Assembly: GCA_903870065.1 (NCBI GenBank)
Contig: CAIQBN010000384.1
Span: 1 to 44,867 of the forward strand
Length of the DNA: 44,867 bases
Direction of reading: 5' to 3'
DNA from: an uncultured beta proteobacterium
Lineage (GTDB): Bacteria; Pseudomonadota; Gammaproteobacteria; Burkholderiales; Burkholderiaceae_C
The position numbers were made by a program, and so were the translations under genes. The notes below the pieces were generated by a model. The model was given only the letters and a program-made list of their open reading frames with translations. It was not told where the DNA came from and did no database searches. Shown here piece by piece: positions 40,846-44,867 of this stretch; the first letter of the stretch is position 1, and the number at the start of each line of letters is the position of its first letter.

Positions 40846-43347
40846 TCACGGCTTCTTCGGACTGTAGAGCCCTATCAACTTGTCGCCAAATCGGGTGAAC
40901 GACTGAAGTTTGCGCAGCGCCGCCGCTTTGGCTTTGCTGCGCAAATTCATGCGCCAGCCTATGGCAGCCAGCAGCATCACGGCCAGAGCCACTGCAAGAC
41001 TGATGCGGGTCCAGGTGGCTGTCGTCGCCACAATCGATACGCCAATCAGCAGCCGCTGCGGCTTGAGCCAGATGGCATTGATACTGTATACGGCAAGAGC
41101 ATCGTCCAGCGCGCCTTGCAGTTGCAGACTGGCAGCCAGGCAGGATTCGACCATGTTTCGAAACGTGGCCATGTCGTTGCCCAACGCCACCACTTGCACG
41201 GTGCGCGCGCAAATTTCCTGCAATGGCTCCAGCGCAGACTGCAAGCTTCGGATCTGGTCTGGACTATCCAGACCGCGGCGTGCCGCCTCCAGTACGGGCT
41301 TGAGCCCGACCAGCACTGCCTGACGCGTTTCGTCACTGTCGGCAGAGGTTTGCGGGCCCGGGGCTCCCCCGATCTTGGCCTGGCGCTGTGTGTCCTCCAC
41401 CGCCAGGGGCAGCAAGGTCTTGGCAACTGCAGTCCGAATCGGGTCCAGGGATTCGACCGGGCCCAGCGCGCCAAACCAGGAACAAAAGTGCAGGTGCTGC
41501 GCCATGGTCTTGAGGATGTCCATGCGTGTGGTCGACACATAAGCCGGTAAGTGCAGCGCCAGTAAAACCTGCCCGTGGAGGCGCTCGACCGACGGCATAT
41601 TCATGCGAATCGGCTGCACGTACAGCGCATAAGCCACATCCACCGCCCCGCTTTTGCCCGAGGCAGTCGGGGGTGCGCGGCTCCAGGCGTCCTCGGCCGC
41701 GCGTGCGGTTTGCCAATGCGTCTCGAAGTCGCGCAGACCCTGCAGCCAGACATGCCTGAATTGCAGTACCGCCTGCCGCCCGGCATCGCCCAATAGTTCC
41801 AGCACGCCCTGCGCATGGATGGACTGAAGCCACGCTGAGGCCTTGGCATCCCCCTGCGTGGACTTGCGTGCGGCCAGCAGCAGGGTTTCACGGCTAACGG
41901 TCTGGCCCTGCCACACCGCCGGAATCTCGGGCGCTGCCACCAGCACAAAGGCCAGCAACCGCCAATCGTCGCTGAGACCGCGCCGGTCCATGATGTCTTG
42001 CAGGCGGCGCAACAGATTGTGGTCGTGCAGCTCGTTGTCAATCCACGCCGCCACCGTCCCACGCATCAGATCCTTGGCCCCACTTTCCCAATGCTTGACC
42101 ATGGTGGCTGCCAACTCCAGTGCGTTGGTGCAACTGGAATCCTCGATGCGGTAAGGGCGAATGGCGACACTCACCGCGCTTTCCTGCGGAAGTGGCAGTG
42201 TGGGATCGGCGCGCAGCCAACGCTGAACTTCATCAGCGCCCCACCGCTGGTGCGGATCGCGCAGCAACAGGCCCCGGCACAGCTTGCGCAAGTCATCGTG
42301 AAACACAACGCGGGTGTCAATGGGCTTGGTCGCCAGCAGGTGGTTGATCACTTGTTCGTTGAGGCCCTCAAACGGGTGACGCCCCAATGCCGCTTCCATC
42401 ACCAGCATGCCAAGCGACCACCAGTCGGACTTTTCATCCAGCACGCCGGTGAGGGCCTCGGGCGCTGCGTAACGGGTGGTGCGCGCGCCACTGGTGAAGT
42501 GCTGGGTGGCCAGCCGCAAGCTGGAAATACCAAAATCGGTCAGCACCAATGACAGCGGTTGCAGCGACCGCACCAGCACATTTTCTGGCTTGAGGTCGCG
42601 GTGCAGGATGCGTTGTCCGTGAATGGCCGACAGGCCCTGCGCCAGTTCTGCCACCACGTCGCGAATCCGCTCAACCGCAAACGGTCCGCGCTCCATCAGT
42701 GAACGCAAGTCGCCTAGCGGGCAATACTCCATCAGCTCAAACCGGACGCCGTCGGCGACCCCGCTCTCATCTACATGAATCACCTGCGCGCAGTTGAGCA
42801 ATCGCAGTTGGTCTTGCAAATCCTGGTCGCCCTGGATGCCCTGGCGGTACAGCTTCAAGACACGCTCGTCAGACCCAGGGAGTACCTGAACCACCAGCAA
42901 GTCCGCTTCTGACCCTGCGGTAGGCAGCGCCTTCAGCACGCGAAGCCGTTGGCGCAGTCCTGCTGGCAACTGCCGGGCAAAAGGAATCTCCGCCGCCGCA
43001 CCAGTATCGGACAACAACTGTGGTGTGGAGTCCATTGAGCTTGCCGACGCCTGGACGGTTGGCATCAGGCTATTGCAATACAGGCAGCGCAGCTCTCCCA
43101 ACGGATTGAACTCGCGGCAATCCGCCTGAGCACACTGGACCCGATGGGCGACTGTCGTCGTACCTGACTCGAGCACCTGTGTGGGGGCTGGTGCGGGATC
43201 TGGATCTGCGTGTGCCTCGGGGTCCGTGTGGATCGAAAAGTCGACCGCCAATAGCGATGCGCCACACGCGCACTGGGTGTTCTGAGGCGGGTTCTCAGTC
43301 CCGCAAACGGGGCACACCCGAACATAGAGCGGGATCAGCGACGCCAT
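40846..43347 (-). CDS. Ser/Thr protein kinase with two N-terminal zinc ribbons and C-terminal TM
   Basis: VCPVCGTENPPQNTQCACG, VQCAQADCREFNPLGELRCLYCN; kinase motifs LHRDLKPENVL, LTDFGISSL, YAAPEALTG; TM ISLAVALAVMLLAAIGW; ATG 43347. Confidence 0.9.
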   Translation of the reverse strand: MASLIPLYVRVCPVCGTENPPQNTQCACGASLLAVDFSIHTDPEAHADPDPAPAPTQVLESGTTTVAHRVQCAQADCREFNPLGELRCLYCNSLMPTVQASASSMDSTPQLLSDTGAAAEIPFARQLPAGLRQRLRVLKALPTAGSEADLLVVQVLPGSDERVLKLYRQGIQGDQDLQDQLRLLNCAQVIHVDESGVADGVRFELMEYCPLGDLRSLMERGPFAVERIRDVVAELAQGLSAIHGQRILHRDLKPENVLVRSLQPLSLVLTDFGISSLRLATQHFTSGARTTRYAAPEALTGVLDEKSDWWSLGMLVMEAALGRHPFEGLNEQVINHLLATKPIDTRVVFHDDLRKLCRGLLLRDPHQRWGADEVQRWLRADPTLPLPQESAVSVAIRPYRIEDSSCTNALELAATMVKHWESGAKDLMRGTVAAWIDNELHDHNLLRRLQDIMDRRGLSDDWRLLAFVLVAAPEIPAVWQGQTVSRETLLLAARKSTQGDAKASAWLQSIHAQGVLELLGDAGRQAVLQFRHVWLQGLRDFETHWQTARAAEDAWSRAPPTASGKSGAVDVAYALYVQPIRMNMPSVERLHGQVLLALHLPAYVSTTRMDILKTMAQHLHFCSWFGALGPVESLDPIRTAVAKTLLPLAVEDTQRQAKIGGAPGPQTSADSDETRQAVLVGLKPVLEAARRGLDSPDQIRSLQSALEPLQEICARTVQVVALGNDMATFRNMVESCLAASLQLQGALDDALAVYSINAIWLKPQRLLIGVSIVATTATWTRISLAVALAVMLLAAIGWRMNLRSKAKAAALRKLQSFTRFGDKLIGLYSPKKP

Positions 43348-44006
43348 GAAACTTGCTCCAGGTTCAAGCCACGGCTTTGGCACAGCGACTCGAGTTGCGC
43401 CATGTCACCGCGCTCGGGGATGCCGATCATCCAGACCTTGCCCCCCTCCACCGCCACCTGCATGCTTTTACTGCCCACTGTGCAAGACACCAAGGAATCG
43501 TGCGTGTACAGGGTGCGACCGCGCTCACTCAAGGGGACCAGAGGCTGGTTGTCGGAGCCGCGCCAAGGTTTTTGGGTCGGTTGGCCGTCTATAAAAGGTT
43601 CTGGAATGATGGCATCGAGCAGCGCGAGGATCTTGGGATGGCGTCGACGCAGCCGCTTGAGCGGGTAGCCACTAAAGCAGATGACATCAAAGTTCATACC
43701 ACTTTGCACACGCCATTCCTGCAGGCCCAATAGCAATCGCAACAACGCGGCCGGTTGGTCAAATGGTTCTCCCCCGCTAATGGTGACACCGTCCAGACCG
43801 GTGGAGGCAACCTGGCGACACCAGCCAATGAGGTCCCGCACGGTGATGGTCTTGCCAGGGTCGCGTGGCCAGGTGTCCATTGACACACAGCCCTTGCAGC
43901 CAATGCTGCAGCCCTGCAGCCACAGTCCAATGCGCCGCCCCGGACCCAACACGGTCACGGGAAAGTGGGCTTTGTTGATCTCGACGGTGGTGCCGGCAGG
44001 TGTCAC
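43335..44006 (-). CDS. NrdG-like radical SAM protein
   Basis: LGPGRRIGLWLQGCSIGCKGCVSMDTWP (CxxxCxxC), GVTISGGEPFDQPAAL; GTG start overlapping upstream stop (GTGA). Confidence 0.88.
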   Translation of the reverse strand: MTPAGTTVEINKAHFPVTVLGPGRRIGLWLQGCSIGCKGCVSMDTWPRDPGKTITVRDLIGWCRQVASTGLDGVTISGGEPFDQPAALLRLLLGLQEWRVQSGMNFDVICFSGYPLKRLRRRHPKILALLDAIIPEPFIDGQPTQKPWRGSDNQPLVPLSERGRTLYTHDSLVSCTVGSKSMQVAVEGGKVWMIGIPERGDMAQLESLCQSRGLNLEQVSWRR

Positions 44007-44867
44007 TGCAGTATGACCGAAACCACCTGCTCGGCGTCTTCGAGAAGTTGTGTCACCGTGATTTGGCTGCGCCCCTCAAAGGACATGCTGAACAAGGCAC
44101 GACTCAAGGGATTGACGAAGGCTGCCTCCAACCGGTTTCCGATGCCGCGCCCGCCGTTTGACAGGTCGCGCACGCACTGCGCAGCAAGCATTTCGCGTAT
44201 CGGCGTTGGAATGACCAGCTCAAGCTTGTGTTCGTGCTGCACCCGCTGAACGATGTTATGCAGCATTCCGTCCACAATCTGGCGCGCCACCGCCGGCGCA
44301 ATGAATCCGAAGACAATGATGTTGTCTCCCAGTCGATTGAGGATTTCGGGGCGCGACAATTTGAATTTGAAATAGTCCTGGATGGCGCGGCGCACGCTCT
44401 CCTCAACCATTTGCGGATCATCCGTTGGCTGTAGGCTTTGAACCCGGCGGCCCTGCTCATCCTCGGTAAAGATGCCCAGGTTGGAGGTGAAGACAATGAT
44501 GGTTTCCGAAAAGTAGGTGATGTCACCGCGTCCGTCGGTCAAACGCCCGTCTTCCAAAATCTGCAGGAATTTATCCAGAATGCGCGGATGAGCCTTTTCG
44601 ATTTCGTCGAACAGCACGACGCTGAACGGCTTGGCGCGCACCGCGTTGGTCAACTCGCCGCCTGCGTCATACCCCACATAGCCCGGCGGCGCTCCCAGCA
44701 AACGTGCGCCGGTGTGCTCGTCGGCGAACTCGCTCATGTCAAATCGGATGTACGCCTGCTCGTCACCAAACACCAGTTCGGTCAGGGTCTTGGCCAGTTC
44801 AGTCTTGCCCACACCCGTGGGCCCGGCAAAAAAAAGCACGCCGCGCGGGCGCGTTCCGCGACCGCGC
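44003..44867 (-). CDS. ClpB-like AAA+ ATPase, C-terminal part (continues beyond the window)
   Basis: LFFAGPTGVGKTELAKTL, GAPPGYVGYDAGGELTNAVRAKPFSVVLFDEIEKAHPRILDKFLQILEDGRLTDGRG, TSNLG; open to the window edge. Confidence 0.92.
   Translation of the reverse strand, partial: RGRGTRPRGVLFFAGPTGVGKTELAKTLTELVFGDEQAYIRFDMSEFADEHTGARLLGAPPGYVGYDAGGELTNAVRAKPFSVVLFDEIEKAHPRILDKFLQILEDGRLTDGRGDITYFSETIIVFTSNLGIFTEDEQGRRVQSLQPTDDPQMVEESVRRAIQDYFKFKLSRPEILNRLGDNIIVFGFIAPAVARQIVDGMLHNIVQRVQHEHKLELVIPTPIREMLAAQCVRDLSNGGRGIGNRLEAAFVNPLSRALFSMSFEGRSQITVTQLLEDAEQVVSVILQ

Follow-up and report, generated by a model that had tools for sequence, protein, structure and literature searches.

At its right end, the window (the whole stretch of DNA that was analysed, 44,867 nucleotides) carries three of the four genes of an operon encoding a coiled-coil (CC) protein, an Hsp100-like ATPase, an NrdG-like radical SAM (rSAM) enzyme and a Ser/Thr kinase with zinc ribbons. 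It is near certain that the four genes belong together as a conserved unit, and the best reading of the window's operon is a kinase-output conflict/defence system. That the four components make up a mobile conflict system, probably anti-phage or stress-triggered, is somewhat favoured by the evidence below, and a conflict or defence role for the family as a whole is a little more secure. No description of the gene set or of its parts was found in the open-access literature searched, and the four-gene system is apparently undescribed.

In a genome assembled as 703 contigs, the window corresponds to contig C384. The features of the operon, including those on the adjoining contig C347, are as follows.

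40846-43347, minus strand: Ser/Thr kinase gene, 833 aa from the ATG at 43347, with the ORF extending to a GTG at 43383 (ORF, Pfam, sequence)
40948-41004, minus strand: predicted C-terminal transmembrane helix of the kinase (hydropathy alone)
42529-42537, minus strand: DFG, kept in the window's branch and lost in the helicase branch (sequence, alignment)
42580-42603, minus strand: catalytic loop HRDLKPEN (sequence, alignment)
42844-42861, minus strand: catalytic Lys motif VLKLYR, retained in the window's branch and lost in the helicase branch (sequence, alignment)
43075-43134, minus strand: zinc ribbon 2, CAQADCREFNPLGELRCLYC (sequence)
43264-43314, minus strand: zinc ribbon 1, CPVCGTENPPQNTQCAC (sequence)
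43335-44006, minus strand: NrdG/PFL-AE-like radical SAM gene, 223 aa (Pfam, NCBIfam, alignment)
43887-43910, minus strand: [4Fe-4S] motif CxxxCxxC, CSIGCKGC, with all three cysteines unchanged across 12 homologues (alignment)
44003-44867, minus strand: 3' part of the Hsp100-like ATPase gene, the complete 617-aa protein running to base 1130 of L004 (contig C347) (ORF, contig join)
44594-44614, minus strand: D2 Walker B, LFDEIEK (sequence)
44672-44683, minus strand: D2 substrate pore loop, GYVG (sequence, alignment)
44727-44867, no strand: exact overlap of 141 bases with the first bases of contig C347 (contig-end comparison)
44801-44824, minus strand: Walker A, GPTGVGKT, of the C-terminal (D2) AAA+ domain (sequence)
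L004:1130-2461, minus strand, beyond the window edge: CC gene (MSGP protein, 443 aa) (contig join)

The three minus-strand genes within the window overlap as the sequence-only reading had described: GTGA at 44003-44006 is common to the end of the ATPase gene and the start of the rSAM gene, and the kinase starts at an ATG (43345-43347) that is 13 nt within the rSAM gene, which ends at 43335. The motifs claimed in that reading (both Walker motifs, CxxxCxxC, HRDLKPEN and DFG) are present, and its domain calls agree with the Pfam matches to AAA_2 and ClpB_D2-small, Fer4_12/Radical_SAM and Pkinase. All three genes of its trio are real; a fourth gene, encoding the coiled-coil protein beyond the window edge, was missed. 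Its expectation that the operon continues past the right edge was confirmed by the overlap with C347, as the last 141 bases of the window are the first 141 of that contig and occur on no other contig of the genome, an identity expected of an assembly-graph overlap. The join is supported because the joined 617-aa ATPase aligns to its homologues without a break at the junction (72% to Rhodoferax, residues 1-617). Contig C347 carries the remainder of the ATPase gene, then the CC gene, with its stop and the start of the ATPase gene overlapping in TGATG, and then a divergent subtilase gene. At the opposite end, the kinase gene is followed by a convergent beta-eliminating lyase gene (Pfam). Opposing genes therefore flank both sides and delimit an operon of four genes in the order coiled-coil (443 aa), Hsp100-like ATPase (617 aa), NrdG-like rSAM (223 aa) and zinc-ribbon Ser/Thr kinase (833 aa), which constitutes a defined, testable module.

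Relatives were drawn from genome contigs, whole-genome searches and plasmids, and the tabulated set consists of 25 loci, the window included, with an rSAM match at E<1e-70. Two loci (L019 and L086), which extend hardly or not at all upstream of the rSAM gene, were set aside, leaving 23 loci scored. The ATPase is present in all 23, and the kinase in 22, the exception being a Gallionella locus (L017) with an ankyrin gene in the cluster. An MSGP-type CC protein is also present in 22 of the 23, with none found in L048; that of L039 was counted from an MSGPK start beside the ATPase alone, the rest being cut by the edge of the sequence analysed for that locus. The association goes beyond chance because the gene set recurs across distantly related Pseudomonadota, and relatives are also found in Bacillota. 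Examining the neighbourhood of the rSAM gene, as the sequence-only reading had proposed, thus showed a co-conserved gene set, and its view of a coupled operon outside housekeeping functions is upheld by this co-conservation and by a patchy distribution, the rSAM system being present in 3 of 37 genomes from the genus and in 11 of 399 from the order (E<1e-70). The system is plasmid-borne in Rhizobium and Caballeronia. Viral contigs gave only distant NrdG-like matches and so no sign of phage carriage; a phage-borne system was rejected on these matches and on the phage records, in which the gene is NrdG.

The rSAM protein belongs to the radical SAM superfamily, with CxxxCxxC within a conserved rSAM domain, and is nearest to PFL-AE and NrdG. 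NrdG is its best NCBIfam match, at 75 bits far under the equivalog cut-off of 126.1 bits, and on this match the protein could be an NrdG that activates anaerobic ribonucleotide reductase beside coincidental neighbours. This explanation can hardly be right, given the conserved operon and the search of the window's genome (88.7% complete), which returned 0 matches to NrdD, with control genomes positive, and 0 to any Gly_radical protein. A housekeeping NrdG/ClpB pair was rejected on the same absence. Because the genome lacks both, the rSAM enzyme probably acts on a partner within the operon, and at this completeness the missing proteins are good but not absolute evidence of a substrate elsewhere. 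Radical SAM genes also lie beside some MoxR-vWA systems, where maturation of small peptides has been proposed (PMC7159879), and by this precedent the enzyme might mature a small peptide, either a toxin or a signal, that the system releases. Such a role is quite improbable, as no conserved small-peptide gene was seen among ORFs of at least 60 aa, and the four genes overlap one another and are closed off at both ends by opposing genes.

The D2 domain of the ATPase features an Arg finger and sensor 2 in addition to its Walker motifs and pore loop, giving an intact Clp-type D2. The IG[FL] ClpP-binding loop is absent from the protein, which, judging from this absence, should act by unfolding or remodelling proteins and not by delivery to ClpP. 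No Walker A was found in the N-terminal half, and profile comparison of D1 with D2 gave no signal. The structural model (mean pLDDT 69.6) aligns over its full length with D1-D2 of ClpC/ClpB, and by this structure alignment the N-terminal half is predicted to be D1-like. A second active AAA+ domain (D1) of the kind found in Hsp100/Clp proteins is therefore not seen, the D1-like fold being without Walker A.

The CC protein of the window begins with MSGPATAAF, and its model (mean pLDDT 64) shows mainly helices and a small alpha-beta domain at the C-terminus; a PDB fold search with this protein gave no significant hits. In the CC alignment (A3), the first four residues, MSGP, are invariant and the following ~100 columns contain no invariant column. 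The start recurs as MSGPK in Aristaeella, MSGTK in L044 and MSGEK in Calothrix, and even distant members keep a conserved Cys close to the C-terminus. The MSGP start and this Cys are candidate sites for the rSAM enzyme or tags for engagement by the ATPase, a reading weakened because distant loci lack MSG. As a universal rSAM target, MSGP is likewise weakened by L049, L057 and L058, which have the rSAM, ATPase and CC proteins but no MSGP start. In one version of this idea, which we put forward as unlikely, the rSAM enzyme would arm the system by modifying the CC protein, possibly through a glycyl radical or another C-H modification at the invariant N-terminal MSGP or the conserved Cys, and the half-dead Hsp100 would read that state and switch on the membrane kinase or a pseudokinase-helicase-nuclease. 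If true, this would be a principle of defence that combines radical chemistry with protein unfolding.

The kinase of the window is composed of two N-terminal zinc ribbons, a kinase domain, a helical region without any Pfam match and a predicted C-terminal transmembrane segment. In the ATPase tree, the window's group splits with 100/100 support from one that comprises Alphaproteobacteria, some Burkholderiales and others, and the rSAM tree exhibits the same split with weaker bootstrap; the window and G014, two members of one genus, are placed apart in the ATPase tree. Gene order also follows the branches, with CC-ATPase-rSAM-kinase in the window's branch and ATPase-rSAM-kinase-CC in the sister branch. 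The aligned kinases of the window's branch all have Lys, HRD and DFG intact and a hydrophobic helix near the C-terminus, and in L039, a related but ungrouped locus, this helix is replaced by a WD40 propeller. All 7 kinases aligned from the sister branch have lost the Lys and the Asp of DFG, and the proteins checked extend into a DUF4011-SF1 helicase plus a Vsr-like nuclease (MTES_1575), both with intact motifs; the lost kinase residues mark the sister-branch kinase as a pseudokinase, here joined to a helicase-nuclease. It follows from the pattern that the kinase is active where the nuclease is not attached and dead where it is, so that its role as output or as regulator can be read by comparing the two clades.

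The helicase-nuclease part of the sister protein matches the models of the anti-phage proteins ProA (4e-144), Hhe (5e-81) and MkoA of Mokosh (4e-44) and of the candidate PDC-S37 (3e-137), with scores below the curated NCBIfam cut-offs where these exist (482 against 1500 bits for ProA). Two sister-branch loci lie within defence islands. In G727, the quartet adjoins a DO-GTPase1/DO-GTPase2/calcineurin-GAAD system of the kind in PMC7159879. In G1115, it adjoins a complete Wadjet I (JetA-D), which itself adjoins a complete type II CBASS (patatin, CD-NTase, E1-E2 and JAB). These two loci are a non-random sample, and defence islands co-locate unrelated cargo. More distant relatives extend the gene set: Aristaeella lactis (Bacillota) encodes, as separate genes, a helicase-nuclease, a kinase, an MSGP protein, a ZnR-FHA protein, the rSAM enzyme, the ATPase, PP2C and a second kinase, G435 has the order CC-ATPase-rSAM-ZnR-FHA-PP2C-kinase, and in L044 a relative of the rSAM/ATPase pair is beside a ZnR DO-GTPase. 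PP2C occurs only in distant relatives (L043, L049 and L054). The sequence-only reading had noted a resemblance to conflict or signalling systems, which is supported in part by the sister-branch helicase-nuclease, the defence islands and the relatives with PP2C, FHA or DO-GTPase, although its gene list was incomplete; of the vWA, PP2C and FHA genes it had proposed to seek upstream, none belongs to the window's operon.

Around the window's operon, and in the flanks examined at other loci of its branch, no known defence genes were seen, which is the main weakness of the defence reading for the window and means that this branch may serve another stress. The operon could thus be a phospho-signalling or protein-quality module for envelope or redox stress, in which the state of the rSAM enzyme would report redox or SAM status, the Hsp100 would remodel the CC protein and the membrane kinase would signal. 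We regard this as possible but rather doubtful. It would suit the missing defence neighbours, the kinase with its predicted transmembrane anchor and retained active-site motifs, and G177, where an rSAM-ZnR-FHA-PP2C-kinase cluster lies near putative TerD/TerB genes (read from sequence), a tellurite or stress context; the nuclease effector and defence-island placement of the sister clade argue against it, as do the patchy distribution and carriage on plasmids. For the window's operon, the defence reading is carried over from the sister branch and would work as follows. The CC MSGP protein would be a scaffold and the likely rSAM substrate, and the Hsp100 would remodel this scaffold or the kinase complex once a trigger is sensed. 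The output of the window's branch may be phosphorylation of a target near the membrane, leading to growth arrest, and the sister branch may act by cutting nucleic acid with its helicase-nuclease, the dead kinase being retained as a regulatory domain. If the conflict reading is true, an NrdG-type rSAM enzyme without a glycyl-radical enzyme and an Hsp100 with one dead ring enter the repertoire of bacterial conflict systems.

Compared with NrdG and pyruvate formate-lyase activase, the rSAM protein shares CxxxCxxC, GGEP and the small rSAM core, but it scores below the NrdG cut-off, forms its own clade tied to the ATPase, and has no glycyl-radical partner gene in the window's genome as searched. 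The ATPase resembles the Hsp100 proteins ClpB and ClpC in its two-domain alignment and active-type D2 with Walker A/B, GYVG and Arg finger, and differs in the absence of the D1 Walker A, the IG[FL] loop and the Clp N-domain and in its length of 617 aa. TerY-P triads, which include TerY-P-like antiphage modules, consist of vWA, PP2C and a zinc-ribbon Ser/Thr kinase (PMC11090510); the window also encodes a Ser/Thr kinase with zinc ribbons, and PP2C and FHA genes accompany the operon's distant relatives. However, the zinc ribbons are N-terminal here and C-terminal there, no vWA or PP2C was found beside the kinase with both flanks typed by Pfam, and the operon adds rSAM, Hsp100 and CC proteins. 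The MoxR-vWA ternary and DO-GTPase/GAP1 systems (PMC7159879) likewise combine an NTPase with a variable effector and zinc ribbons, whereas neither MoxR with vWA nor DO-GTPase with GAP1 was found in the window's operon or flanks, the quartet lacks MoxR, vWA and GAP1, and its gene set was not found in the text of PMC7159879. KKP kinase-kinase-phosphatase defence (PMC11341870) has a phosphatase partner and other accessory genes, and the quartet, which is not on prophages as far as searched, shares with it a Ser/Thr kinase as a possible toxic output. Finally, the kinase of the window has no helicase part by Pfam and helicase-model search, unlike the MkoA-type kinase-helicase fusion, and the sister-branch protein is set apart from Mokosh (MkoA), ProA and Hhe by its pseudokinase fusion and its rSAM, Hsp100 and CC partners, while matching the helicase and nuclease parts of their models.

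The genes of the quartet are also found in other arrangements, and a further radical SAM pairing recurs.

Loci of relatives and of the further pairing
L039:3267-8739, rearranged operon, genome G259
L044:6779-13667, ATPase/radical SAM pair with DO-GTPase2, genome G081
L017:7378-7836, ankyrin-repeat gene, Gallionella
L057:1-9585, helicase/PIN variant, Leisingera plasmid
L058:1-9534, helicase/PIN variant, Photobacterium plasmid
L053:7712-10579, NrdG-like radical SAM and other AAA+ ATPase, Paenibacillus polymyxa plasmid
L096:7962-10201, same pairing, viral contig
L059:8899-11054, same pairing, Treponema plasmid

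The G259 kinase bears a WD40 propeller and is separated from the ATPase by small genes resembling toxin-antitoxin parts. At the G081 locus the kinase is replaced by a zinc-ribbon DO-GTPase2 protein beside the ATPase/radical SAM pair, and a protein with the variant start MSGTK is encoded a few kb upstream of this pair. The Gallionella cluster is without a kinase, and its coiled-coil and ATPase genes are separated by the ankyrin-repeat gene. In the Leisingera and Photobacterium plasmids, a single gene run encodes an SF1 helicase, a PIN-domain protein, a coiled-coil protein, the Hsp100-like ATPase and the radical SAM protein; both the kinase and the MSGP start are absent there.

The pairing of a NrdG-like radical SAM gene with a different AAA+ ATPase at three loci is distinct from the quartet's and may represent another radical SAM-AAA+ system. 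DUF1257 and DUF2997 genes accompany this pairing in Paenibacillus, and contractile injection genes adjoin it on the Treponema plasmid.

A DUF4011 gene and a radical SAM gene, which may be related to the sister branch, form the right flank of the P. aeruginosa core defence hotspot cDHS1 (PMC10250203).
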